Below the pieces are notes generated by a model. The model did no database searches and was not told the DNA's origin. It saw only the letters and a program-made list of their open reading frames with translations. 45,754 bases of DNA, taken from NCBI GenBank assembly GCA_030840445.1, contig JAVEEN010000238.1, positions 1 through 45,754 of the forward strand, given 5' to 3'. Positions 2,990-34,039 of the stretch are shown piece after piece (position 1 is the stretch's first letter; every line of letters begins with the position of its first letter). This DNA is from Pseudonocardiales bacterium (GTDB lineage Bacteria; Actinomycetota; Actinomycetes; Mycobacteriales; Jatrophihabitantaceae). Made by a program: the position numbers and the translations under genes.

Positions 2990-4597
2990 TCAGCCGGCGA
3001 CTTCACCCATGGATCGGGGACGAATCCTGCGCGCGCCGATCACCATCGCGAAACCCAGTGCGATCAGGATCGCACCGAAACCGGCTGCCGTTCCGTTGGA
3101 TGATCCGGTGTTCGCCAGTACGGCCGCCTGCTCGGCGGCGAGGACGACGTAGGCGGCGGCTGCCGAGGTCGAACCCAGGTAGCCGGTCGAGCCTGCATAG
3201 GCTGCCTTCAGGCTGTGGGAACCGACGGCGAGTTTCACCGACAGGGTTGCTTTGCCGTTGGAGATGCTGGCTGTTCCCAGCTTTTTCGATCCGTCCGTGA
3301 ACGTGACAACGCCGGCCGCGGGGCCACCCTGGCTGGAGGTCACCGTCGCAACCAGTGTGGTGCTGGTGCCGACAGTGATCCCGCTTGGGGGTGAAACGGT
3401 GAGCTTGGTCGCGGTGACCGCTTGGCGATAGCTGATGGTCACAACGCCGTCTCCGGTGTTGGTTGCCGTCTTCACGGCCGAGGCCTGGGCGCTCAGATAG
3501 CCCGAACCGCCGCCGCCGGCACCGACGTAGCCGCCAGTGCCATCGGTTCCGCCGCCACCACCGCCGTAGAAGCCACCGCCACCGCCGCCCGCGGTACCGA
3601 AGAAGAAGCCGGACGGGTTCTGGGCTCCGTCACCGCCTTGACCCGGCCCACCCGCGAACGTGGCCGGTCCGGTCCCAGCCGAACCCATCACGCCGGTGCC
3701 ACCGCCGAAGTTTCCAGAACTGTTGTCCGCGCCCGCGGCGCCCCCAGCGGTCTTGCTCGCTGCCCCACCGGCCAGCGGGTCAGCCGTCAGGTCCATCGCC
3801 GGTGCGGCACCGGTCGTGCCACCAGCGCCGCCGGCACCGCCGGGGCCGCTATAGGCGAGTCCACCCGCACCGCCGCCGCCGCCACCAGCGACGGCCACCA
3901 GCGTGTTGTTGTCGAAGACGAACGAACCGCCGCCGCCGGCTCCGCCGGGCCAGTTCGTTACACCCGTAATCGAGCCGGACTTGCCGCCACCGAAGTAACC
4001 GCCATCGACCGGGCTGGTGCCGGTGCCGGGCACGCCGTCCGAACCGGCTATGCCGACGAAAGCAGTCAGGCTGTGCCCGGAGATCACCGGGACGGTCGCG
4101 GTCACCTGGCCGCCCGCGCCGCCGGCGCTCAGGACAGGTGGCGGAACAGCGGCCTGCGGGCGGGCAGCACGCGCCGCGGCGGCAGCCCGGTAGGCCGCAG
4201 ACTGCTGTAAGGCGCCGTTCGCGGCTACCGGACTGCCAAGAAGGCCCTGGCCGTCCATCGCGTTGCCGCCGGAGCCTGCGGCGACCGTCAGCGTCACCGA
4301 GGAGACACCGGCCGGCACCTTCCAGCTCTGATCGGCGCCGGTGGCGGAGAAGGTTACGGTGCACAGGCCAGCAGGGCAGGCCACGGGAGTTGCCGCCGAC
4401 GCGATCTGCGGTGTGCTCAATGCCCAGAAGGACGCGGACGACAGGCTCAGAACCGCGAGGGCGGCAGCGCCCCGACGAAGCCGGTGTCCGGACACGGTCG
4501 CATGGGCGTTGCGATGAGGCTTGATAATGCCGGGCTCCGAGGCTCGAAGAATTGCCGTATCGCGGTCCTCCGAGATCGGCAACGCTGACTCTGTCAT
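2990..4597 (-). CDS. Glycine-rich surface protein with Ig-like domain and LANTG sortase signal
   Basis: This 535-residue exported protein is built in blocks. It has a long basic leader with the hydrophobic core at about residues 43-60 and a likely signal-peptidase site after IASA (68). A small strand-rich domain follows (SWKVPAGVSSVTLTV). A very glycine-rich region spans about 110-390, full of GGAGG and GGGG runs. An Ig-like (Big_3 type) domain follows (VTVGTSTTLVATV-like through YAGSTGYLGS). The end is LANTG at 494-498, a hydrophobic helix and the basic tail RRIRPRS. LAXTG is the recognition motif of class E sortases in high-GC Gram-positives, so I infer covalent attachment to the cell wall. 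No sortase gene is in the window. It is probably an adhesin or structural surface protein. It resembles PGRS-style glycine repeats in composition but lacks a PE domain. Confidence 0.85.
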   Translation of the reverse strand: MTESALPISEDRDTAILRASEPGIIKPHRNAHATVSGHRLRRGAAALAVLSLSSASFWALSTPQIASAATPVACPAGLCTVTFSATGADQSWKVPAGVSSVTLTVAAGSGGNAMDGQGLLGSPVAANGALQQSAAYRAAAAARAARPQAAVPPPVLSAGGAGGQVTATVPVISGHSLTAFVGIAGSDGVPGTGTSPVDGGYFGGGKSGSITGVTNWPGGAGGGGSFVFDNNTLVAVAGGGGGGAGGLAYSGPGGAGGAGGTTGAAPAMDLTADPLAGGAASKTAGGAAGADNSSGNFGGGTGVMGSAGTGPATFAGGPGQGGDGAQNPSGFFFGTAGGGGGGFYGGGGGGTDGTGGYVGAGGGGSGYLSAQASAVKTATNTGDGVVTISYRQAVTATKLTVSPPSGITVGTSTTLVATVTSSQGGPAAGVVTFTDGSKKLGTASISNGKATLSVKLAVGSHSLKAAYAGSTGYLGSTSAAAAYVVLAAEQAAVLANTGSSNGTAAGFGAILIALGFAMVIGARRIRPRSMGEVAG

Positions 4598-4961: not shown

Positions 4962-5003
4962 CCTGACCTAGACAACCTGACCTAGACAACCTGACCTAGA
5001 CAA
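4962..5003. repeat. Three perfect 14-bp tandem repeats before the SDR gene
   Basis: CCTGACCTAGACAA is repeated exactly three times (4962-4975, 4976-4989, 4990-5003) with no spacer. It runs directly into the GAGGATG ribosome-binding region and the GTG start at 5019. It lies in the promoter or leader of the SDR gene. Exact identity suggests recent slippage, so copy number may vary between strains. Confidence 0.92.
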
Positions 5004-5018
5004 GAGGATGGGCAACAC

Positions 5019-5795
5019 GTGAATCCGTTCGACCTCACCGGCCGAGTCGCGATTGTCACCGGCGCCGGCAGCCCCACCGGTATCGGCTTCGCGACCGCCG
5101 AGCTACTCGCAGAACTCGGCGCGGCGGTGCTGGTTACCTCGACCACCGACCGGGTGCAGGAGCGTGTCGCGGAGCTGCGCGGCGGCGGCGCAGAGGTGGC
5201 CGGCGTTGCCGCGGACCTCACGGAGCCGGCGGATGCTCAGCGGATCGTCGACGCTGCCGTGACCCGCTGGGGCCGGCTCGACATCCTCGTCAACAATGCC
5301 GGGATGACGTCGGTCTCGCAGCCGGTCGGCGAGGACGGCCCGTTGGAGGCGATGTCGCTGGAAACCTGGCGTGCCGGCTTGCATCGCAATCTCGACACTG
5401 CGTTCCTGGCAACCCGCGCGGCGCTGCCGGCGATGACTGCGGGCGGGGGCCGGGTTGTGATGGTGGCCAGCGTGACCGGGCCGGTCATGGCTATGCGGGC
5501 CGACCCGGTGTACGCCGCTGCCAAGGCGGGCATGGTCGGTCTCGTTCGAGCGCTCGCGCTGGACGTCACAGTGCGTGGGGTCACGGTCAATGCCGTTGCG
5601 CCGGGCTGGGTTGCTACCGGATCCCAGACACCGCACGAGCACCAGCAGGGTTTGCGGACCCCTATTGGGCGCAGTGCCACATCGGCAGAAGTCGCTGCGG
5701 CAGTGGTCTTCCTCGCCTCTCCCGCCGCGTCCTACATCACCGGCCAGTGCCTCGTGGTCGACGGGGGAAACTCCATAGCTGAAGAACGGGCCTGA
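5019..5795 (+). CDS. Short-chain dehydrogenase/reductase
   Basis: This 258-residue cytosolic oxidoreductase of the classical SDR fold carries a variant nucleotide-binding loop (GAGSPTGIG near residue 16), the NNAG motif, a catalytic serine in VASVT, YxxxK in YAAAK, and the closing ITGQCLVVDGG. It should oxidise or reduce a hydroxyl/keto group with NAD(P)H. The SPTGIG insertion in the glycine loop resembles FabG-like reductases acting on unknown substrates. The GTG start follows AGAGGA. It is a single gene, ending 11 bp from the convergent GH30 gene. The three perfect repeats upstream suggest its expression may be variable. Confidence 0.9.
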   Translation: MNPFDLTGRVAIVTGAGSPTGIGFATAELLAELGAAVLVTSTTDRVQERVAELRGGGAEVAGVAADLTEPADAQRIVDAAVTRWGRLDILVNNAGMTSVSQPVGEDGPLEAMSLETWRAGLHRNLDTAFLATRAALPAMTAGGGRVVMVASVTGPVMAMRADPVYAAAKAGMVGLVRALALDVTVRGVTVNAVAPGWVATGSQTPHEHQQGLRTPIGRSATSAEVAAAVVFLASPAASYITGQCLVVDGGNSIAEERA

Positions 5796-5806
5796 GCCGG
5801 CTCGAG

Positions 5807-7303
5807 CTACCAGTGCAGCGTCGCGATCGCTCCGGAGGGAAGCTGCACCCGAGCGGCTTGACCCTGCCATCGGACTGTGACCGGCTGGGCGGAGCCACCC
5901 TCGTTGTACAGCACGAGCGCATGAGTGCCGTCCGGGTTCCGGAACGCGACGGACTGCACTCCGGTCGGGTTGCTGTACGTGGACTGGATCCGGACTGCGC
6001 CTGGCGCGACGAACCGGCCGATATGGGCCAGCAGGTAGTACTCCACGTTGTAAGTCACCGCATGCGTGACGGGGTCGATCGTGAGCACGCCACGGCAGTT
6101 CGTGCAGCCGCCATTGGTAGGACCACCGGTCGGATCCAATGCCAAGTTGAAGAACATCACCGCCCGGGAGGCGTTGCGGAACGCTCCGATGAGCAGATGA
6201 TGGGCGTTCCAGCGCAGGTTCTGTGCGAAGTCAGCAGACCATGTTCCGCCACTGCATTCACTCATCCACACCTGCTTGCTGGGCGCGGCCGCCGCGATCG
6301 CAGCCTGCGCCGTCTCATCGCCGGCGTAGCAGTGGACGGCGGTGCCGGCGAATGCGGCAGCGTAAGGACCGGTGACTTCCGAGATCGGGTATGCGCTGTC
6401 GTCCCAGTTGCCTTCGTAACCGAGGATCCCAACACCGGACAGGCCGGCAGCGTTGAGCGCAGGCCGGAGATGGGCGCCGACGAACTCTGCTTGCTGCGTT
6501 GCGGTCATCGTCATCGATGGTGAGTAGCCGCGTGGTGATTCGGGTTCGTTCGTGACAGCGACCGTGGAGACGGGTGCGCCGGCCGCGCGGTAGGCGGTGA
6601 TCGCCTTGACGAGGTAGCGGGCATAGGCGTCCTCGAAGGCGGGGGCCAGCTGACCGTTGTGGGTATTGACATTCGTCTTCATCCAGGCTGGCGCAGTCCA
6701 CGGCGTCGCCAGGACGGTGAGGCCTGCGTTGATACCACGCGCGGCGGCCACCAGGGGAAGCAGCTGTGCCTTGTCCCGGCTGATGCTGAACTTCGCAAGT
6801 GACGGATCGGTCTGCCCCCACGGCATGTCATCGAAGGTGTAGTCCGAGCGAGCGAAGTCGCTGGCTCCCAGCGGGGTTCGGATCACGCTCAGCCCGGCAC
6901 CGGTCGCGCGGTTGAACAGCCGGTTGAGGACCTGGGTCTTCTGCGGGGCGGGTAGCCCGCCGAGCAGGACCGCGCTCGACTCGGTCATCGCGGCACCTAC
7001 GCCCTGCACCGTCTGGTACCGCACGGCATCGTTGATGTCGATCCGGCTCCAGCTGTAGTAGCTGGATAGGTCCGGGCCGAAGGTCGTGGGCGTTTGAGCC
7101 GACAGCAGCTGTCTGCGGTCGCCCGTCGTCACGACCCAGCTCACCGCCGGCCCGGCAGTTGCGGTCCCGAGGGCGGCAGATTGCAGGCCCGGCGTCAAGG
7201 TGCGGGCACGTTTGCCCGGCGCGGCACGAGCGGTGGTGAGTGCAGCACAGGTCAAGGCTGGGATGAGGACGGCGAAGACCGTGAGGCGGTGATGGATTCG
7301 CAC
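5807..7303 (-). CDS. Secreted GH30-family glycoside hydrolase
   Basis: This 498-residue protein has a Sec signal peptide (basic MRIHHR, hydrophobic core, cleavage near TARAAPG). It then has a GH30 (beta/alpha)8 barrel followed by the side beta-domain typical of the family. Visible signatures are QGVGAAMTES near 100, WTAPAWMKT near 202, the acid/base glutamate E253 in TNEPE and the nucleophile E349 in SECSGG. Known GH30 enzymes include glucosylceramidases, endo-beta-1,6-glucanases and beta-xylosidases; I favour a beta-glycosidase trimming an extracellular polysaccharide. It lies 83 bp downstream of the acyltransferase gene in the same direction, so it is probably the third gene of the exopolysaccharide operon. 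A paralogue is at 11340-12851. Confidence 0.9.
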   Translation of the reverse strand: MRIHHRLTVFAVLIPALTCAALTTARAAPGKRARTLTPGLQSAALGTATAGPAVSWVVTTGDRRQLLSAQTPTTFGPDLSSYYSWSRIDINDAVRYQTVQGVGAAMTESSAVLLGGLPAPQKTQVLNRLFNRATGAGLSVIRTPLGASDFARSDYTFDDMPWGQTDPSLAKFSISRDKAQLLPLVAAARGINAGLTVLATPWTAPAWMKTNVNTHNGQLAPAFEDAYARYLVKAITAYRAAGAPVSTVAVTNEPESPRGYSPSMTMTATQQAEFVGAHLRPALNAAGLSGVGILGYEGNWDDSAYPISEVTGPYAAAFAGTAVHCYAGDETAQAAIAAAAPSKQVWMSECSGGTWSADFAQNLRWNAHHLLIGAFRNASRAVMFFNLALDPTGGPTNGGCTNCRGVLTIDPVTHAVTYNVEYYLLAHIGRFVAPGAVRIQSTYSNPTGVQSVAFRNPDGTHALVLYNEGGSAQPVTVRWQGQAARVQLPSGAIATLHW

Positions 7304-7386
7304 AGTGGTCCAATCGGTCGAGGAAGGCGATAGCTGAGCGGGTTTAGCCGACCAGCCGGACCGAGGAACTCGCCCGGACCAGGCGG

Positions 7387-8631
7387 CTACTTGACCTCAG
7401 ACAGCTGTTCCAGCTCCGGGTAGTAGTTGCGCTTGCTGCCGTCTTTGTTGCGCAGCGAACGCAGCTTGGCGGTGGGGTACTCGATCACGCGGTAGCTGAG
7501 TGCCCCGGCTGCGAGCGAGAGCAGGAGCACCGCCGCAATGTTGTACGGCAGGGCCGACACGGAGCGATTGGTAATTCCGTGATGCTCCAGCGTCTGCATT
7601 ATCGGCTCATGCCACATGTAGGAGCTGTAGCTGATCAGGCCGACCAGGGTCAGCGGTCGCCAGGACAGCATCCGCGCCCATCGTTGGTTCTTCGGCCCCA
7701 GCACCGTACTGGCCAGCAGCAGCATCCAGCCGAGTGCGGCCAGGTCGTGGAAGCCGACCTGTCCCCAGCTGTTCGGGCGATCGATCCACGTTGCGCCGGC
7801 GACGATCGCGATGCCTGCCACGCGAAGCAGCAACGGCCAGCGCCCCTTGAAGAGCGGCTCGGATTTCCTGGCGGCCACGATCACCGCGAGCGCCATGCCG
7901 ACGGCGAAGGCACCGAAGCGGGCCTGCGGTCCGAAATACACCGGCCAATGATCGTAGGGAACGTGGAAGACGAAGTAGGACGCGGCGTTCCAGGTCACCG
8001 GGATGAGGTACAGCACGGCACAGCCCGCCAGCAGCACCGCCGTCCGCGCTCGTCGCGTCGCGATGTTGCCGCAGACGCGAACTGCGAGCGGACCGAGAAT
8101 GACCAGGATTCCGTAGAAGAGAATCTCCAGGGACATCGACCAGGTCGGCCCCAGTGTGTAGAAGATCCGCTTCTGATCGAACACCTGGGTGAACGTCAGA
8201 TGTTCCAGCAGGTCAATCCAGTCACCGGGCAGGGCCGGGTTACGTATCGACCAGACGACGGTGACCCCGATCCAGTACAACGGCAGGATCCGGACCGCAC
8301 GCCGGAACAGGAACGTGCCAGCCGTCATGGTCGAAGTCCGGTCTATCGCAGCCCGGGCGTAGGACATGGTGAGCAGGTATGCCGACAGCAGGAACAGGAT
8401 GTCGACGATCTCGAACTTCGCCAGCTGCGTGACGGTTGGGCTCGATGGTGTCGACTGAATCGCGGACTGGCTTACGTGGAACACGATGATGGACATAGCC
8501 GCGATGCCGCGATAACCCTCGAGTTCATTGGTACGGCCTCGCTGGGGCTCGCCTTCCGGCGGAGTAGCGAACGCAGTCGGCGGCTTCGGAGCTGCCGGCG
8601 GGCCGAGTCGGTCAATGGTGTCGGTGTTCAT
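7387..8631 (-). CDS. Acyltransferase-3 (OafA-type) membrane protein
   Basis: This 414-residue polytopic membrane protein of the acyltransferase-3 family usually transfers acetyl or succinyl groups to sugars of surface polysaccharides. Visible are the opening NELEGYRGIAAMSIIVFHVS (the conserved RG and histidine of the family), TLGPTWSMSLEILFYG, and the late SYSSYMWHEP motif, with about ten membrane helices. The ATG at 8631 overlaps the stop of the upstream glycosyltransferase gene as ATGA, so the two are translationally coupled. An in-frame extension to 9270 is a shadow of the glycosyltransferase gene. Inference: it decorates the polymer made by its upstream partner. Confidence 0.92.
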   Translation of the reverse strand: MNTDTIDRLGPPAAPKPPTAFATPPEGEPQRGRTNELEGYRGIAAMSIIVFHVSQSAIQSTPSSPTVTQLAKFEIVDILFLLSAYLLTMSYARAAIDRTSTMTAGTFLFRRAVRILPLYWIGVTVVWSIRNPALPGDWIDLLEHLTFTQVFDQKRIFYTLGPTWSMSLEILFYGILVILGPLAVRVCGNIATRRARTAVLLAGCAVLYLIPVTWNAASYFVFHVPYDHWPVYFGPQARFGAFAVGMALAVIVAARKSEPLFKGRWPLLLRVAGIAIVAGATWIDRPNSWGQVGFHDLAALGWMLLLASTVLGPKNQRWARMLSWRPLTLVGLISYSSYMWHEPIMQTLEHHGITNRSVSALPYNIAAVLLLSLAAGALSYRVIEYPTAKLRSLRNKDGSKRNYYPELEQLSEVK

Positions 8632-10961
8632 GCCGATACCTCCGGTGTGTTCGAGGTGCTGGTGTCGCTCCCGCCGCGCGGCGTGACATTCCACTGAGCT
8701 TCGCCTACGAGTTCTTTGACCTGTGCGACCCGGGCGATGATGTTCTTCCACTCGGTGTAGAGGATCGAGGAGGTGAACAGGTAGGTCCAGAACCAGCGAC
8801 GGTGCTTTCGCAGCTCGGGGACGGCCAGACGGTAGGCCAACAGCGTTTGCGCGGGCCCGACGGAGAGGGTGAACAGGGTGGCCAGCACCAAGGACGGGAC
8901 GACCCAGTGCAGCGGCGTGCCGCGCTGTTCGGCCTTGTAGGCCAGGACCGGGATCATCTGCAAGGACAGCCACGGGTAGATCTCCCGCCAGCCGAGCAGG
9001 AACCCCATGCCGGTCTTCTGCCGCACGCTGAGATTCTTCGAGCGGAACGTCGAGCGCAGGTGCTTGCGTGACACCTGGAACCAGCCTTGCGCCCACCGGG
9101 TCCGCTGCTTCCACAGCGCTCCGACGGTCGTCGGCGCCAGCTCCCGAGAGATGAGCGCCGGGTCCGAGGCAATCCGGGCGCCGGAGCCGAGGATCCGCAG
9201 CGTCGAATCGATGTCCTCGGTCAGCATGGAGCCACGCATGCGCGTCTCGGCGAGCAGTTGGGTACGCCAATACCCGTTCGAGCCTCCGAACAGACCGAAA
9301 TCATGCAATGCGGTACGCCCAGGGTGGCTCACCGCATAGATGGCTTCGAATTCCACCGCGACGGTCCGGGCGACCAGGGAGGCTTCACCGTTACGGATCA
9401 CGCAATGCCCCTGCACCACGTCATAGCCGTTGGACAGCCATCGCCAGGCCCGGTCGAAGGACTTCGGGTCGGGATGATGGTCGGCGTCGAACATGCCGAC
9501 GAACTCACCCTTGACGTGGCTCATTGCAGCGTTGACGTTCTGCGCCTTGGAGGTGCTGCCCTCGACCTTCAACGGCAACAGCCGCGGATCGAGCAGCGCG
9601 ATGTCCCGCAGCTCATCCTCGATGGCCATCGGCGTCGGGGTGTTGTACGCAACGATGATCTGCAGCTCCCCGGGATAGTCGATGCGCTGGAACGCTTCCA
9701 CGGTGTCCAGGATGGTGGCCGCCTCATTCGGCAGATATGCCGCGATGACAGCGGTCGCCGCAGGGTAAGGCGATCCGGGTTCCTTGGGCGGCTGTTTCGG
9801 GTCCAGGGCAAACAGTCCCTCGACCCAGATGCTGATCGCGGTGACCAGCAGCGCTGCCATCACCACCCAGTACGCGATACCGGAGACGTCCAGTCCGATG
9901 TGGCCGAGGGCCTCGTACAACGCGAACGGTGCGCCGATCCCGATGACGAAGCTGGCGAGAATCTGCGAGGGCAGCCTGACGTGATCGAGGAGGGTGCGGA
10001 CGCGGACGCCGCCGGTCGAATGCGACGTTCGGGTGCGCCGCTCCAGGGCCTGCGTCCAGGCGACGGGCAGCAGGTCGAGGTGGCTGGCGGCCGACTCGGT
10101 TGCAGTCAGTGCCTGCCCTAGCAACTCTGTGGCGTCCGCAGCGTCGGAGAACCGGGCCCACCCGGTCACCGGCGTGACCCGCACATGCTCCTCACCGATG
10201 CTGAACCGGGTCGCGGCGACCTGCGCGGCCAGATCGGCCAGGCGACGCTGGACATCCTCCGGTCGGGTCTCAGGCAGCAGGACAAGCAGCCGGCCGGAGG
10301 TGTCCAGTCCGAGACGCTCCAGCGGGAGTGGGTCCGCGCGAAGCAGATCAGCCAACTGCTCGGCCAGCTTCGTCGTCGTCCCGGGACCGAACCGGGCCAC
10401 CAGGCGCGTCATCTCCTGCAACTGCACGACTCCGAGCGAACCGGGCCGGTCCACGCGGCGGCCGCGGACAAGCTCACGGTCGGCCTCTTCCACCATCGTC
10501 TTCTGCGCTATCAGCCCGGTCCGCAGGTCCCGGGTCACCATTTCCACAGGCACCGGAGGCCGTGCGGTCTTGGCCTTCACCCGAGCCACGAGTTCGCTGA
10601 TGGACAGCGGACGGGCGACGCAGTCATCGGCACCCAGGCTCAATCCGGTAAGGACATCCTCGCCGTTGGCCGTCAGCAGGATCACGGGGACTGCGCGGTC
10701 GACATGCACCGAACGCAGCCTGCGCAGCAGCTCGAATCCCGCGCCGCCTGGCATCGACACATCAGCGACCACCACGTCAGGACGGACCTGGGCGAGCAGT
10801 TGCTCGGCGGCCGATCCGGTCGGTGAGGCGGTGACGAGGTATCCAGCCTCCTCGAGCGCGAGACGTGCAGCAGTGATGAAGGACTGGTCATCGTCGACGA
10901 GGAGCAGATTTCGGGCCGCGCGGCCGACTTGCAGCGGCGCTAAGGTCGGTGCGGAAGTCAC
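8628..10961 (-). CDS. Receiver / degenerate GGDEF / family-2 glycosyltransferase fusion
   Basis: This 777-residue protein has three modules. Residues 15-135 form a response-regulator receiver: acidic D23-D25, phospho-acceptor D67 (VVVADVSMPGG), T97, but arginine R117 where the usual lysine sits. Residues 145-305 look like a GGDEF domain that has lost its motif: it opens DLRTGL, and GLDTSGRLLVLLPE (218-231) replaces GGDEF, so diguanylate synthesis is unlikely. From about 330 there are two membrane helices, then a processive inverting glycosyltransferase core with D492-x-D494, TED (581-583) and QRTRW (619-623), then three C-terminal helices. The core matches cellulose/hyaluronan/poly-GlcNAc-type synthases. 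I infer a membrane polysaccharide synthase controlled by phosphorylation. The GTG start has GGAGG 10 bases upstream. No sensor kinase is nearby. Confidence 0.92.
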   Translation of the reverse strand: MTSAPTLAPLQVGRAARNLLLVDDDQSFITAARLALEEAGYLVTASPTGSAAEQLLAQVRPDVVVADVSMPGGAGFELLRRLRSVHVDRAVPVILLTANGEDVLTGLSLGADDCVARPLSISELVARVKAKTARPPVPVEMVTRDLRTGLIAQKTMVEEADRELVRGRRVDRPGSLGVVQLQEMTRLVARFGPGTTTKLAEQLADLLRADPLPLERLGLDTSGRLLVLLPETRPEDVQRRLADLAAQVAATRFSIGEEHVRVTPVTGWARFSDAADATELLGQALTATESAASHLDLLPVAWTQALERRTRTSHSTGGVRVRTLLDHVRLPSQILASFVIGIGAPFALYEALGHIGLDVSGIAYWVVMAALLVTAISIWVEGLFALDPKQPPKEPGSPYPAATAVIAAYLPNEAATILDTVEAFQRIDYPGELQIIVAYNTPTPMAIEDELRDIALLDPRLLPLKVEGSTSKAQNVNAAMSHVKGEFVGMFDADHHPDPKSFDRAWRWLSNGYDVVQGHCVIRNGEASLVARTVAVEFEAIYAVSHPGRTALHDFGLFGGSNGYWRTQLLAETRMRGSMLTEDIDSTLRILGSGARIASDPALISRELAPTTVGALWKQRTRWAQGWFQVSRKHLRSTFRSKNLSVRQKTGMGFLLGWREIYPWLSLQMIPVLAYKAEQRGTPLHWVVPSLVLATLFTLSVGPAQTLLAYRLAVPELRKHRRWFWTYLFTSSILYTEWKNIIARVAQVKELVGEAQWNVTPRGGSDTSTSNTPEVSA

Positions 10962-11339
10962 AGAGTCTCAACCTCCAGGTCTAGGGCGCACGGGGGCGCA
11001 CAGCGGCGCACAGCAATGACAGGCGGGTACTTCTTCGGATGACGACGATGGCTTGGCGTCGATGTCGCGGCTTGGACGCAAGCGCAACGACGCGCTATGG
11101 ACTACGTACGAAACGCTGCACCGGCAGGTTCGCCCGACCTGCGGCACGAAGGTATGGCGGCCTTCGCCTTTGAATACTCGAATACGGAGTTGCGCTACCG
11201 ATGGTAACCATTGCCCGCGTGAGAACGGTGTTTGCAACCCCGGTTGCGCAGTGGTCATGGTGGCGCGACGAAACATACGCCGCTGAAATATGGCAGTACA
11301 TGCGCCTCTCATCTGGATCCGGTAGCTATGAAAGGCGAT
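10962..11339. promoter_or_regulatory. Divergent control region between synthase and GH30 lipoprotein genes
   Basis: This 378-bp gap has no convincing gene and must hold both divergent promoters. Besides the phased GGCGCAC array I see three palindromes: GCAGGT/ACCTGC with a 7-base gap (11124-11142), ATGGTAACCAT (11201-11211), and GCAACCCCGGTTGC (11234-11247). The last resembles LacI-family operators in general form. I cannot assign a regulator. Confidence 0.5.
10985..11011. repeat. Three GGCGCAC repeats phased at 10 bp
   Basis: GGCGCAC lies at 10985-10991, 10995-11001 and 11005-11011, a spacing of exactly 10 bp, close to one helical turn. The array is 24-50 bp before the glycosyltransferase start and in the region shared with the divergent GH30 gene. 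Phased direct repeats of this kind are typical of response-regulator binding sites, but this is only a resemblance. Confidence 0.6.
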
Positions 11340-12851
11340 ATGACGTCAACGCTGGTCAGAGATCCGGCCCGAACCCCTGGGCCCCGATACCGCGGGCGAT
11401 TCACGTTTGCGCTGCTGTGCCTCGTGATCGCGCTTGTCGCAGGGTGCTCAGCTGCAACCAAGCACTCGCCGCCGCCAGCCCCGAGTGCACCATCGACTGC
11501 CGCCAAAGTCGTCCAGGTGTGGCTGACGACCGCCGACGGAAACAAAAAGTTATTCCACAGTTCACCTGTGACGATGACCTCGCGCGCGTCCGCACGTGGC
11601 GCCGACCACACCGTGACTGTCAATGGCTCCCGTCGCTACCAACAGTTCTGGGGCGTCGGGGCGTCACTGACCGGGGCATCGGCGCAGCTGATCTCTGGTC
11701 TGTCCCAGGCGCAACGCTTGCACACACTCACGTCACTGTTCAGTCGGTCCGACGGAATCGGGCTGTCGGTACTCAGGCAGCCGATCGGCCCGAACGACTT
11801 CTCCATCGGCAACAGCACGTACGACGACACCGCGGCCGGCACCGCGGACCCCGGCCTGCAACACTTCACTCTCGATCCCGAGGCGATGTCCACCATGGCG
11901 TTGCTGCGGCAGGTGCGGCAGCTCAACCCGGCGGCGACGGTGGTCGCCTCGGCATGGAGCGCCCCGGCGTGGATGAAGTCCAGCGGGTCCATCATCGGCG
12001 GCACCCTCAACGGCGAGTACTACGACGTGTATGCGAAGTATCTCGCCCGGGCCGTGCGGGCCTACACCGCTGCGGGAGTCAGCGTGGGTGGTATCACCGT
12101 GCAGAACGAGCCATCCTTCTCCCCGGCCGGCTATGCGGGAATGACGCTGTCTGTCGATCAGCAGCGGGAGCTGATAACCAGGCATGTGCGGCCGGCGCTG
12201 ACCGCTGCCGGGCTCGGGCAAGTGGGCATCTGGGCGCTGGATGACAACTATGACCGGGTCGGCGACGCTGAACAGCTGGTAGCCGATGCTGCCGTCCGGT
12301 CGGCGATAGCCGGTGTCGCCTTTCATTGCTATCACGGTGACGTTTCTGCGCTGCAGGGATTCCACGCCAAGCATCCGGACGTGCCGTTGGCCATCAGCGA
12401 ATGTAGCGGCGGCGACTGGTCGCCGAACTTCCGGGACAACCTGCGTTATGACGTCGAAACGCTTCTCATCCACGGTATCGGCAACGGCGCGTCCTGGGTG
12501 TCGAAGTGGAACGCGGCCTTGGATCCGTCGGGTGGCCCCGCCAACGGCGGCTGCACGAACTGCCGCGGAGTCATCAGCATTGATCCGCACAACGGGACGG
12601 TCTCCTACAACGAGGCCTACTACGCCTTAGGTCAGCTCGGCAAGTTCGTGATCCCGGGCGCGCAGGTCGTGTCCGCGACGGCGGCGGGCAACAGCGGCCT
12701 CGAAACGGTCGCGCTGCGCAACCCGGACGGGTCCCACGTCCTACTCGTCTTCAACTCCGCCACGCAGGATGGCACTTTCCGGGTGACCGACGGAGTGCGC
12801 TCCTTCGACGCGACCCTGCAAGCTGGATCCGTTGCCACCTACACCTGGTGA
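11340..12851 (+). CDS. GH30-family glycoside hydrolase, lipoprotein
   Basis: This 503-residue protein is a paralogue of the GH30 enzyme at 5807-7303. The N-terminus has a basic segment, a hydrophobic core and the lipobox LVAGC with the lipidated cysteine at 36, so it is tethered outside the membrane, followed by a proline/serine linker. The barrel shows WGVGASLTG, WSAPAWMKS, acid/base E257 in QNEPS and nucleophile E354 in SECSGG. The block GGCTNCRGV, with two cysteines, is shared with the other GH30 protein. I chose the ATG at 11340 for its AAAGG site; an ATG 12 bases upstream is possible. It is divergent from the synthase gene. The two enzymes probably act on the same polymer, one released and one anchored. 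Confidence 0.9.
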   Translation: MTSTLVRDPARTPGPRYRGRFTFALLCLVIALVAGCSAATKHSPPPAPSAPSTAAKVVQVWLTTADGNKKLFHSSPVTMTSRASARGADHTVTVNGSRRYQQFWGVGASLTGASAQLISGLSQAQRLHTLTSLFSRSDGIGLSVLRQPIGPNDFSIGNSTYDDTAAGTADPGLQHFTLDPEAMSTMALLRQVRQLNPAATVVASAWSAPAWMKSSGSIIGGTLNGEYYDVYAKYLARAVRAYTAAGVSVGGITVQNEPSFSPAGYAGMTLSVDQQRELITRHVRPALTAAGLGQVGIWALDDNYDRVGDAEQLVADAAVRSAIAGVAFHCYHGDVSALQGFHAKHPDVPLAISECSGGDWSPNFRDNLRYDVETLLIHGIGNGASWVSKWNAALDPSGGPANGGCTNCRGVISIDPHNGTVSYNEAYYALGQLGKFVIPGAQVVSATAAGNSGLETVALRNPDGSHVLLVFNSATQDGTFRVTDGVRSFDATLQAGSVATYTW

Positions 12852-12950
12852 ATCACACAGGCAGCGAACGATCAGGACGTAGGCTCAATCCGGACCTTGC
12901 CTCCTAGGCACTCATTCTCCTGATGCGTGCGCCGGTTGGGAGTATCTGCG

Positions 12951-14369
12951 ATGGGGCGTGCGGCATACCGAAGGATTCGGCTCGCCTCGATAGCGACACT
13001 CGGTTGCCTGCTCGTGCTTGGGGTCGTCCTCGTGTTGACGAAGGACCGACATGACATCGGCCCGGTCGCGACAGCGGACGGCGCTGTCGCCACGCTGATG
13101 CAGGACGCCTACGTCAACGCCGGCACGCCCGCTGTGAACTACGGCGCAGCTCCGACCTTGCAGCAGCAGGCATCCCGAACCACGCAGATCTCGTATCTGA
13201 GTTTCGACGTTCAGGGGATTACCGAATCTCCGGCAAGAGCGGTGTTGCGCTTGTTCTCCCGATCCACCGGCAGTACTCGCACGAGCGTGTCAGGCACCTC
13301 CAGCGGTTGGACCGAGACCGGCATTACCTGGGCCAACCGGCCTGCCCCCGGTTCGCCGATCTCGACTACCGGTGTGCTGCGCTCGGGTCAATGGACGGAG
13401 GCCGACGTCACCGCGGCGGTCACCGCAACCGGTGTGGTGTCGTTCGCCTTGACCACGAGCGCCACCGCCACCCGCCTGGCGGACAGCCGCGAAGGACCCA
13501 ACCCACCCCAGTTGGTACTCACCCCCGGCGCGGCAGGCAGCTCAGCAAACCCGAGCAATCCAATGCCGGGCGGTCATGTCACGAAGCTGCTGACCGTTGT
13601 GGTGGAAAACCATTCGCTGTCCCAGATGACTGCCGGCATGCCCTACCTCGATTCGCTGGCCCAGCGATTCGCCTACGCGAGCAACTACACGGCTATCCGC
13701 CACCCGTCGCTGCCCAACTACCTGGCCATCGTCGGTGGCTCTGCCTTCGGTGTTACCGATAACAACCCGCCGTCCAGCCATCCCATCGCGGGAGACAGTA
13801 TCTTCGATCAGGCCTTGGCACGGGACCTCACAGCCGCAACGTATGCCGAGTCGATGCCCAGCAACTGCGCGCTCACCCCCAGTGGCGCTTACGCCGTGAA
13901 ACACAATCCCTGGGCCTACTTCAGCGACCCGACTCCTCGGCGCAACTGCCAGAACGCCGATGTACCAGCGGGAACGCCCGCGAGCGGCAACCTCGCCAGT
14001 GACGCCGCGGCCGGGCGACTGCCCAACGCCGGGCTGTGGATACCCAATCTCTGCAACGACGCCCACGACTGTTCACTCAGCATCGCCGACAACTACCTCG
14101 AGAGCTGGCTACCGCAATTGATGGCCGCACCGGACTTCCAGACCGGCCGGCTTGCCATCGTCGTCACCGCCGACGAGGACAACAACACCTCGGTCAACAG
14201 GGTCCTCACCGTGGTACTGCACCGAAGCCTCGACGGCAGCCGTACCGTCGTGAACACCGCCCTGACGCATTACTCGCTCACCCGGCTGTACGACCAGGTC
14301 CTCGGTGCCGATCTATTACGCAATGCCGTCACTGCGCCAGATATGCAGGCAGCGTTCAAGCTGCCCTAA
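12951..14369 (+). CDS. Secreted DNRLRE-domain and phosphoesterase fusion
   Basis: This 472-residue protein has an N-terminal membrane helix (about residues 10-30), which is either a signal anchor or a signal peptide. A DNRLRE-type beta-sandwich (about 45-190) follows: DAYVNAGTPAVNYG, SYLSFDVQGI, GWTETGITWANRP. Such domains occur in extracellular carbohydrate-active or surface proteins. Residues 210-465 match the phosphoesterase family of acid phosphatase/phospholipase C type: VVVENHS (E219-S222), HPSLPNYLAIVGG, and DEDN near 400. The substrate is unknown; phosphorylated surface polymers or lipids are reasonable. The ATG at 12951 follows GGGAG. It is 99 bp behind the GH30 lipoprotein gene in the same direction, probably co-transcribed. 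Confidence 0.88.
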   Translation: MGRAAYRRIRLASIATLGCLLVLGVVLVLTKDRHDIGPVATADGAVATLMQDAYVNAGTPAVNYGAAPTLQQQASRTTQISYLSFDVQGITESPARAVLRLFSRSTGSTRTSVSGTSSGWTETGITWANRPAPGSPISTTGVLRSGQWTEADVTAAVTATGVVSFALTTSATATRLADSREGPNPPQLVLTPGAAGSSANPSNPMPGGHVTKLLTVVVENHSLSQMTAGMPYLDSLAQRFAYASNYTAIRHPSLPNYLAIVGGSAFGVTDNNPPSSHPIAGDSIFDQALARDLTAATYAESMPSNCALTPSGAYAVKHNPWAYFSDPTPRRNCQNADVPAGTPASGNLASDAAAGRLPNAGLWIPNLCNDAHDCSLSIADNYLESWLPQLMAAPDFQTGRLAIVVTADEDNNTSVNRVLTVVLHRSLDGSRTVVNTALTHYSLTRLYDQVLGADLLRNAVTAPDMQAAFKLP

Positions 14370-31275: not shown

Positions 31276-32012
31276 CAGACGTTCACCTCCGCCGATCCGA
31301 GGTAGGCACTGAGCACTGCCTGGTCCTTTCGCACGTCGTCGGGCGCCGCTGTCAGCAGCACCTTTCCCAGGTTGAGTACAGTGACCACGGAGCAGATCTG
31401 CATCACCAGATCCATGTCATGTTCCACGAGCACGATAGCCAGGCCGTCGTCGGCGAGTCCGATGAGCAGCTTGCCGAGCGTGCGAGTTTCCTGCTCATTC
31501 AAACCGGCGGCCGGTTCGTCGAGCAGCAGCACCTTGGGTCGGGTGGCCAGCGCCCGGGCCACCTCGAGCAGCCTGGCGAGACCGGTCGGTAGCCGGTCGG
31601 AGCGCTCTTGCGCCATCTCCGCCAAGCCGGTTCGCTCGAGCGCCTGCAGCGCATCGGCCTTGCTGTCGCTGTGATCGCGTGCCCAGCTGCGCCTGATCTC
31701 GGCCGCGGTCAGCACATTGTCATAAACCGACAGCACGCCGAAGAGCTCCAGCTGCTGAAACGTACGCGCCATCCGCAGCCGCGCACGCTTGTACGAACCC
31801 ATCGCTGTAATGTCGGCCCCCTCCAGCAGGACCGTGCCCTGACGCGGTTGGACAAGACCGCTCGCAACGTTGAACAAAGTCGACTTGCCCGCACCGTTGG
31901 GACCGATCAGCCCATGAATCTGCCCGGCTTCGGCCGACATCGACACCTTGTCGACCGCCGTGACACCGCCGTAGACCACCGAGACCTCCCGGAACTCCAA
32001 CAGCGCGCTCAT
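31275..32012 (-). CDS. livG: Branched-chain-type ABC importer ATPase, LivG
   Basis: This 245-residue ATPase has Walker A GPNGAGKSTLF, the LivG-type RMARTFQQLELF Q-loop, and Walker B VLLLDEPAAGLNEQE. The ABC signature is unusual: LPTGLARLLEVARAL replaces the standard LSxGxQ, although the LivG family often shows LPYGxQR here. It is fused by 1-bp overlap to the permease gene upstream and to livF downstream. It pairs with LivF to power the transporter at the inner face of the membrane. Confidence 0.93.
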   Translation of the reverse strand: MSALLEFREVSVVYGGVTAVDKVSMSAEAGQIHGLIGPNGAGKSTLFNVASGLVQPRQGTVLLEGADITAMGSYKRARLRMARTFQQLELFGVLSVYDNVLTAAEIRRSWARDHSDSKADALQALERTGLAEMAQERSDRLPTGLARLLEVARALATRPKVLLLDEPAAGLNEQETRTLGKLLIGLADDGLAIVLVEHDMDLVMQICSVVTVLNLGKVLLTAAPDDVRKDQAVLSAYLGSAEVNV

Positions 32013-34039
32013 CAGCCGACCTTCAATCCGAGGGAGTCGTCGAGAATTTGCTGCTCACGCCTACTGATACGGCCGTCCATACCGAGAAACTCCCATTCGA
32101 TGCACTGCTCGTCCCAGCCCTCGGTAACCACGTCCGTCTCGACGGCGGGCACCTGCGCGCCTCGGCGCCTGACCAATGCGGACAGCCCCGCGCCGATGTC
32201 AGAGGCAACACCGTTGGGCTGGCTGCCCAAGCCGATCCCCACCAGTCCGGGCAGCAGGGATGAGCCCCGGCTGAAGAGCGAGGACATCGTTCCCAGCGTG
32301 CTGAACAGGCCGAGCGCGAGCGCGCCGAAGAAGGCGCCGCTGACCATGCCGACCCCACCGGCCATCATCAGCAACAGCAACGGAAGGCTCTGGAAGAAGG
32401 AGAACTGGTCCGGCGCAACCTGGGTGGATAGTCCCGCCAACAATGCACCACCAACACCTGCGATACCAGCCGAGAGCGAGAACACGGCAAGCTTCACGGT
32501 CGTCAATCGCAGCCCGAGCATCGCGCACGCCGCGGGGCTCTCCCGCATCGCCAGCAGCACCCGACCGTGACGCGAACGGCGCAGCGCGACGATGCCGAAA
32601 CCGATCGCACAGAAGATCACGGCGAGAACCACCAGGTAAACCCGGTCATTGGAGACGTCCACGAACGGAACCTGCAGCCGCGCGGCGGGCAGGGTGCCGT
32701 TGCCGAACAGCGGGATGTGGTGGCCGAACACGGTCACCGAGGACAATCCGAAGACGAACGTGTCGCAGAATTCGGCCAGCGCCGCGGTCGCCAGCGCCAG
32801 GTAGAGCCCGCGAAGCCTGATCGCGGGTAACGCCGTGAGCGCGCCGACAGCAGCAGCAACAACGAAGGCGACCACCAGCCCCAGCGGGCTGCCCCCGCCA
32901 GTGGCATGGGCGTACACCACGGCGCCGATACCGGCGAAGGTCATCTGGCACAGCGAGATCTGGCCACCGTAGCCGAGCAGCGGCACCAGCGACAGGCCGA
33001 CGATGCCCAGCCCCAGGCCACTGCTCATCGAGAACAGCGGCTGGGTGGACAGCAATGGCGCCAGCGCACACGCAAGCCCGACCACCACCGCCGATCCGAT
33101 CAGCGCCATCTTGTAGGTGGGAACGGGGAACGATTCGCGGCCACGGCGCCCGGTGTGGCCCCGCAGCCGTTGATGAGGCAGTACCAGCAGGGCGACGAAC
33201 AGGACGAGGATCGGGATGGTGTCCGGAACGTGCTGCATCCATTGCACGGTCGATGTCGGTAGGTAACCGACCGCGTAGCTTTGCAGCAAGCCGATGATGG
33301 CCGCTCCCAGAAACGTCAGCGGCAGGCTGCGTAGCTTGCCGATCACGGCCGCGGCGTAAGCGTTGACCACCAACAACGTCAGCGGGACAACGGACAGCTG
33401 AATGTAGGGCGCGATCAGGATTCCGGCCAGAGATGCGAGCATCGAGCCGATCGCCCAACTGAACATCGAGGCCCGATCCGGTCGGCCGCCGTTCAGAAGT
33501 ACCAATGCGCGATCGTCCACGACGGCCCGCATGTCCAGCCCGATCCTGGTGCGATAGAGCAGAACCCGCAGGCCGACGGCACACAGCGCGCCGATCCCCA
33601 CCGTGATGAGCTGATCCCAGGTCACCGGCACGCCCAGGATATCTACCTTGTTTCCCTGATAAAAGGCGGCGAACGGCCGACTCAGGTTCGGATCCCAGAT
33701 CCAGGTCGCCGCCCCCACCAGCGCGACCAGTACACCGATGGTGACCGCCAGCTTGGTGGCCTCGGTCGCATCAGTCAGGTTGCGCATGAGCGCCTTCTCC
33801 AGGCCGCACCCGAAGATCGGTGAGAGGACGAAGACGACCAGCAACAGTGCGATCCAGGCCGGCCAACCCCAGCTGAACCGTAATTGCCAGTAGATGAAGG
33901 CACCGAACATCCCGATGGCACCGTGGGCCAGGTTGAACACACCGGAGGTCGTATAGGTGACCACAAGACCGCTCGCGGCGATGGCGTAGATGGACGCGGT
34001 CACCAGGCCGAAGATGGTGTAAGCGAGAAGGTCCTGCAC
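32012..34039 (-). CDS. Fused LivH-LivM branched-chain-type ABC permease
   Basis: This 675-residue protein joins both permease subunits. The LivH-like half (about 1-290) shows GLVTASIYAIAASGLVVTY and FNLAHGAIGMFGAF. The LivM-like half (about 310-610) shows LLGYGGQISLCQMTFAGIGA, RLRGLYLALATAALAEF and GVGGALLAG. There are about 18 membrane helices. A cytosolic tail of roughly 65 residues follows (RRRGAQVPAVETDV through DDSLGLKVG), longer than a typical LivM end. The GTG start at 34039 has AGGAGG nine bases upstream. A strong hairpin lies in the gap before it, downstream of the binding-protein gene. Confidence 0.92.
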   Translation of the reverse strand: MQDLLAYTIFGLVTASIYAIAASGLVVTYTTSGVFNLAHGAIGMFGAFIYWQLRFSWGWPAWIALLLVVFVLSPIFGCGLEKALMRNLTDATEATKLAVTIGVLVALVGAATWIWDPNLSRPFAAFYQGNKVDILGVPVTWDQLITVGIGALCAVGLRVLLYRTRIGLDMRAVVDDRALVLLNGGRPDRASMFSWAIGSMLASLAGILIAPYIQLSVVPLTLLVVNAYAAAVIGKLRSLPLTFLGAAIIGLLQSYAVGYLPTSTVQWMQHVPDTIPILVLFVALLVLPHQRLRGHTGRRGRESFPVPTYKMALIGSAVVVGLACALAPLLSTQPLFSMSSGLGLGIVGLSLVPLLGYGGQISLCQMTFAGIGAVVYAHATGGGSPLGLVVAFVVAAAVGALTALPAIRLRGLYLALATAALAEFCDTFVFGLSSVTVFGHHIPLFGNGTLPAARLQVPFVDVSNDRVYLVVLAVIFCAIGFGIVALRRSRHGRVLLAMRESPAACAMLGLRLTTVKLAVFSLSAGIAGVGGALLAGLSTQVAPDQFSFFQSLPLLLLMMAGGVGMVSGAFFGALALGLFSTLGTMSSLFSRGSSLLPGLVGIGLGSQPNGVASDIGAGLSALVRRRGAQVPAVETDVVTEGWDEQCIEWEFLGMDGRISRREQQILDDSLGLKVG

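Follow-up and report, generated by a model that had tools for sequence, protein, structure and literature searches.

In a stretch of 45,754 nucleotides from a Pseudonocardiales bacterium (contig JAVEEN010000238.1; the whole stretch that was analysed is called the window throughout), the gene at 8628-10961 on the minus strand encodes one protein in which a receiver (REC) is followed by a degenerate GGDEF fold and then by a BcsA-like family 2 glycosyltransferase (GT2). We propose, with a probability of roughly 0.6, that the family to which this protein belongs represents a two-component system in which a membrane polysaccharide synthase is itself the response regulator, and that the window copy is a derived member whose kinase has been lost. 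From the comparison of homologous loci, control by phosphorylation appears well supported for the family and uncertain for the window copy. A more detailed version seems to us slightly better than an even bet, namely that a kinase coupled to the synthase by overlapping codons phosphorylates the receiver, that the receiver acts through the dead GGDEF domain and that the clade of the window copy is now losing this control.

The synthase reading frame begins with GTG, has a GGAGG 10 bases upstream and runs free of stops for 777 residues. Pfam recognises the receiver (Response_reg, PF00072) at residues 20-129 (10575-10904, minus strand, as for all parts of this gene) with E 9.6e-22 and 77.7 bits against a cut-off of 30.2, and matches GT2 models over residues 401-694. 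An AlphaFold model computed from a 43-row alignment (mean predicted local distance difference test score (pLDDT) 86.7, predicted TM-score 0.77) contains a five-stranded receiver with strands between residues 17 and 116, a GGDEF topology from helix 153 to helix 294, and two long helices at 319-384, after which come the GT2 fold and further helices at the C-terminus. From the model, Foldseek and the Pfam matches of relatives, the degenerate GGDEF domain was placed at residues ~140-300 (10062-10544). Two predicted N-terminal membrane helices follow at residues 319-384 (9810-10007; model helices 319-354 and 360-384, hydropathy peaks from 330). The processive GT2 catalytic domain, placed by Pfam and alignment, occupies residues 396-630 (9072-9776) with intact DAD (492-494), TED (581-583) and QRTRW (619-623) motifs, and hydropathy and the model outline a C-terminal helix region, in part of predicted membrane helices, at residues 646-751 (8709-9026). 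Among 43 aligned members the key residues of the GT2 motifs either do not vary or reach a conservation of at least 90%, and with DxD, TED, QxxRW, the GT2 fold and membrane helices the synthase has the features of a processive BcsA-like enzyme.

When the model was compared with the PDB by Foldseek, the REC-GGDEF cyclase DgcR (6zxb, E 5.1e-17) ranked first and BcsA (4p00) second, and the lone GGDEF domain 3ign aligned with a target TM-score of 0.89 and a root-mean-square deviation of 2.2 A over 165 columns. The multi-domain matches at ranks 1-19 had target TM-scores of at most 0.52, such low values being expected where domain orientations differ. The original prediction had described these three modules in a single polypeptide; the open reading frame, Pfam, the model (in which receiver and GGDEF folds are both present) and Foldseek agree with it, and the residues and motifs that it named (D67, R117, DxD, TED and QRTRW) were found where it had placed them. 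The same domain order is also present in other genomes of Actinobacteria, Chloroflexota and Acidobacteriota. This recurrence in other phyla, together with a same-genus copy on two contigs (identity 98% over residues 1-527, 97% over 487-777), excludes a frameshift or chimaera.

The evidence for a two-component system comes from the genes beside the synthase. Genome contigs were scanned for relatives, and 80 of the 92 obtained were retained; the alignment has 81 rows including the window, the duplicates L009-L011 and the C-terminal fragments L068 and L109 having been omitted and two loci added. Receiver columns are filled in 35 of these rows and the full Asp-Asp-Asp-Thr-Lys set is present in 24; the window and the same-genus copy lack the Lys only, and the nine other filled rows lack more, some of them being without a Pfam receiver (the receiver model matches 29 of 43 members). 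Canonical receivers were seen in Cellulomonas, Demequina, Cryobacterium, Mycolicibacterium, Anaerolineae bins and one Acidobacteriota bin. Neighbouring kinases, acyltransferases and glycoside hydrolases of family 30 (GH30) in the relatives were called with home-made profiles, the kinase profile being built from one neighbour; greedy gene calling is unreliable at such GC content, and the counts do not rest on it.

With the window and L040 left out, a histidine kinase gene adjoined the synthase on the same strand at 14 of 24 loci with a canonical receiver, but at none of the 50 where the receiver was absent or decayed (Fisher p 4e-9, uncorrected for relatedness beyond the Cryobacterium test given here); receivers were left unjudged at five loci, two of which had such a kinase. 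The contrast persisted when 1000 bases downstream were required (14/22 versus 0/44) and when three near-identical Cryobacterium rows were dropped (11/21 versus 0/50, Fisher p 1e-7). Eight loci sampled later gave 3/5 for canonical receivers versus 0/3, where two of the three kinase-positive loci closely resemble Demequina rows and are therefore not fully independent, and where the open frame of L141, one of the five, does not include the acidic pair.

Both HisKA and HATPase_c were found by Pfam in nine of ten kinase reading frames scanned, mostly with GAF or PAS domains. The frame at L044 has HisKA only, and the ninth with both domains, at L041, is a SpoIIE hybrid located 3 kb from the synthase. 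The kinases of five other loci align to the L055 kinase over some 495-510 of its 520 residues, and no 19-residue segment with hydropathy above 1.6 occurs in 14 kinase frames, five of them reduced to their last 530-560 residues. At nine of 13 loci, four of the nine being Cryobacterium, a candidate in-frame kinase start overlaps the synthase stop by four bases (NTGA); at two it follows the stop by one base, and at the other two none is so close. A four-base overlap of start and stop is a usual sign of translational coupling. For the family, the adjacent histidine kinase genes strongly support the earlier suggestion of a directly signal-gated synthase; for the window copy the suggestion stands on weaker ground, as detailed below.

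In the ancestral form, a histidine kinase of GAF/PAS type, whose gene adjoins and often overlaps that of the synthase, would sense a cue and phosphorylate the receiver. Dimerisation of the receiver would then reposition the dead GGDEF domain, acting as a transmission and dimerisation module, and the GGDEF domains so moved would gate the GT2 site through the two membrane helices. In PleD and DgcR, the GGDEF domain serves both transmission and dimerisation. We infer the dimer-switch chain from these two proteins and from the model, and likewise suppose phosphotransfer, an effect on polymer synthesis and the direction of gene loss. In the window member, the kinase gene would have been lost and an acyltransferase coupled to the synthase instead, the receiver keeping its acidic pocket and D67 while its Lys and switch aromatic changed. 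Most likely, either a kinase acts on the window protein in trans and control has weakened, or the receiver now has a structural role and the synthase is nearly constitutive.

Indeed, no kinase gene was found adjoining the window synthase when the locus was searched with the kinase profile. Where linked loci have the overlapping kinase gene, the window has an acyltransferase family 3 gene (7387-8631, minus strand, Pfam), whose likely ATG lies on the synthase stop (ATGA, 8631-8628). The order synthase, kinase, acyltransferase occurs at L043, L055 and L069 and at the later loci L147 and L148, so that simple loss of the kinase would yield the order seen in the window. An acyltransferase lies directly downstream at 31 of 50 loci with absent or decayed receivers versus 2 of 24 with canonical ones, and these two are L039 and L041. 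Of the 81 rows, 79 entered a GT2 tree, in which the window groups with L039, L041 and L042 in one clade (support 100/100). This clade branches between the kinase-linked Cellulomonas-Demequina group and a branch of Frankia, Lentzea, Gordonia and Nocardioides rows, for which the alignment shows no receiver. Acidimicrobiia, Sphingomonas, Patulibacter and Tengunoibacter, on other branches, likewise have missing or decayed receivers, and receiver loss has therefore probably occurred more than once. A receiver relic at the Frankia N-terminus was considered and rejected: profile comparison gave a probability of 0.1%, Pfam found no match in the two of three rows scanned, and the model of this region, from three sequences, was poor (pLDDT 51.9).

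Several observations weigh against a kinase-linked ancestry followed by loss of control. Ten of the 24 canonical loci have no adjacent kinase on the same strand, and only two of these ten (L048 and L059) have fewer than 300 bases downstream. At L046 a kinase lies 950 bases off on the other strand, and at L066 and L074, where the receiver is decayed, the neighbouring gene on the opposite strand encodes a kinase. Support is moderate (96/91 and 95/82) for the deeper forks on which the position of the window's clade depends. The receiver Lys is present in two of the four clade members, and erosion is thus non-uniform. Finally, the ratio of non-synonymous to synonymous differences per site (pN/pS) between the receivers of the window and L040 is 0.13, on only three non-synonymous and nine synonymous differences, beside 0.05 and 0.06 for two GT2 stretches; the window receiver still looks constrained, perhaps slightly relaxed.

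How the window copy itself is controlled can be read in other ways, and its receiver bears on two of them. D23, D24, D67 and T97 are retained, and Lys alone of the five-residue set is replaced, by R117; additionally, C114 stands at the usual Tyr and L119 at the usual Phe, the GADDY...KPF of most relatives reading GADDC with KPL, RPL or RSV in this clade. In the clade-mate L042, D67 is gone, as is the acidic pair. The original prediction had urged caution over R117, and these further changes bear it out; along with the missing kinase neighbour, they are what weakens the case for signal gating here. They would also fit a receiver that is a relic heading for loss, a structural spacer without signalling on a constitutive synthase, as would the sister branch without receivers. 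We hold this to be a tentative possibility, against which stand the four retained residues, the low receiver pN/pS on its few differences and the full set kept by L039 and L041. Alternatively, an unlinked kinase or a small phosphodonor might signal to the receiver in trans, with control otherwise normal. Orphan response regulators are common, and the L055 kinase as query gave 22 matches in the window's genome, the best at C33 (35%, residues 172-508). However, none was full-length in this 92%-complete genome and the Lys and switch positions are altered, which makes normal control in trans rather unlikely. A faster change of the receiver in the window's clade was not upheld: the ratio of receiver to GT divergence is 2.0-3.4 in six pairs of this clade (3.5 for the near-identical window and L040), and 1.5-2.8 in the 11 pairs assigned to the kinase-linked group (although for one row of the pair L044/L048 no kinase was seen). 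Other canonical pairs gave 1.9-2.5, and three pairs with decayed receivers 2.5-3.2; since these ranges overlap, the faster change is no more than a hint.

The dead GGDEF domain bears on a further alternative, in which the synthase would be controlled by a nucleotide, c-di-GMP (cyclic di-GMP) or another, bound to this domain in the manner of PelD and PssE, and the receiver would do no more than modulate this control. Degenerate GGDEF domains do bind c-di-GMP in other polysaccharide systems, as sections of PMC7112168 and PMC4125290 describe, and the window's genome has eight GGDEF matches. At E 0.1, PF00990 matches 27 of 43 aligned members, with no Pfam GGDEF match in the window protein itself; GG[DE][DE]F, the mark of a diguanylate cyclase, is present in none of the 81 aligned rows, some of them incomplete. 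The original description of a GGDEF-like domain without its motif was thus correct, and loss of the RxxD I-site can be added: the window protein has L212 and E215 in place of the Arg and Asp that a PelD/PssE-type receptor would carry. Six family members, L049 and L058 among them, retain both residues, but these are just six of the 72 rows filled there, and the middle domain diverges faster than GT2 in most pairs compared. We therefore consider nucleotide control improbable. A more specific candidate, c-di-GMP control through PilZ or a canonical I-site, was unsupported; Pfam found no PilZ match in the window protein, nor was there one in its 92%-complete genome, and the I-site residues are lost. 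As a separate observation, four Acidimicrobiia loci (L063, L066, L074 and L077) have the I-site Arg and Asp and have lost the receiver Asp; judging from these residues, they may rely on nucleotide control instead.

Parts of the proposed two-component synthase have counterparts in known systems. A section of PMC5847659 lists, among response regulators with enzymatic output, a REC fused to a BcsA-like GT2 in Methanobacteriaceae, and notes multiple bacterial instances of REC domains on standard metabolic enzymes; the REC-GT2 fusion as such is already known in archaea. These MTH_548-type proteins have one or two receivers and a BcsA-like PF13641 GT2, a REC-PF13641 combination that the window protein also has, but they are archaeal, come from three genera and are set beside the present family by description only, that section mentioning no GGDEF domain. 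The first ~300 residues of the window protein share domain order and fold with PleD and DgcR, which are diguanylate cyclases; the window protein lacks their catalytic and inhibitory sites and has a GT2 attached. With BcsA and PgaC/IcaA it shares the GT2 core, DxD, TED, QxxRW and flanking membrane helices. It has no PilZ match, scores below the PgaC_IcaA cut-off and is set apart by an N-terminal regulatory module.

Degenerate GGDEF receptors and c-di-GMP control are treated in sections of PMC7112168, PMC4125290, PMC8461298 and PMC10333796. According to the first three, PelD, PssE and BcsE also link a dead GGDEF domain to polysaccharide synthesis; they are separate proteins, and PelD and PssE retain the RxxD I-site that the window protein has lost. 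The original prediction had held that other systems use separate c-di-GMP-binding domains, which agrees with the BcsA PilZ domain, Alg44 and PelD as control parts (PMC8461298); a degenerate GGDEF domain can, however, itself be the binding domain, as in PelD and PssE. In EpsW-EpsZ of Myxococcus, a phosphorylated receiver activates a polysaccharide enzyme post-translationally; there, receiver and enzyme are separate proteins, and the enzyme is a phosphoglycosyl transferase belonging to a Wzx/Wzy pathway, unlike the single GT2 protein of the window (a section of PMC12802240, which also states that synthase-dependent polymers are frequently under post-translational c-di-GMP control). In the open-access literature, where absence cannot be proven, we recognised no report of a bacterial REC-GGDEF-GT2 protein with a coupled kinase. 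If the proposal is correct, signals would reach the matrix polymer by a second and direct route, through a synthase that doubles as response regulator and sets polymer output without transcription or c-di-GMP. The family would also allow one to ask whether a dead GGDEF domain survives as a mechanical relay, and its synthases, some kinase-linked and others receiver-less, form a natural series.

The family is sparse. At a cut-off of E 1e-60, counting synthases with or without a receiver and including the centre genomes, it was found in 6 of 396 genomes sampled from the window's phylum; samples of 301 genomes from the phylum of L044 and of 396 from the order of L043 gave 4 and 8, respectively. 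Within the window's genus, it is present in one of eight further genomes, not all of which are complete.

As to the product, the window synthase scores 77 bits with the NCBIfam model PgaC_IcaA (TIGR03937), far from the cut-off of 422.3, and lacks the C-terminal PilZ of BcsA. The next gene beyond the acyltransferase on the same strand encodes a GH30 glycoside hydrolase (5807-7303, Pfam), and a second GH30 gene (11232-12851, plus strand, Pfam; start uncertain, scanned from 11343) diverges from the synthase. Together, the acyltransferase and GH30 genes suggest an acylated polymer, possibly trimmed by the GH30 enzymes. GH30 genes lie near the synthase at the window, L040, L041, L042, L043, L064, L067, L068, L072, L076, L085 and L091, in distant genera, and such recurring neighbours hint at a common polymer linkage.

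A scan of 5700-11500 for sigma-70-type promoters and terminators gave nothing above shuffled sequences. On the 3' side of the divergent GH30 gene, 12927-14369 (plus strand) encodes a CBM96 domain fused to a phosphoesterase-family domain (Pfam); profile matches to this protein adjoin the synthase in L105 and lie near it in L040. At 2990-4597 (minus strand), a glycine-rich protein has a Big_3_5 Ig-like domain (Pfam) and a C-terminal LANTG with a hydrophobic tail, which we take to resemble a sortase signal. Elsewhere in the window, the region 32000-34000 has a strong AT skew (0.21-0.43 per 500 bases), unlike the rest, and short tandem arrays are present at 4962-5003 (14 bases x 3) and 2235-2302 (18 bases x 3.8).

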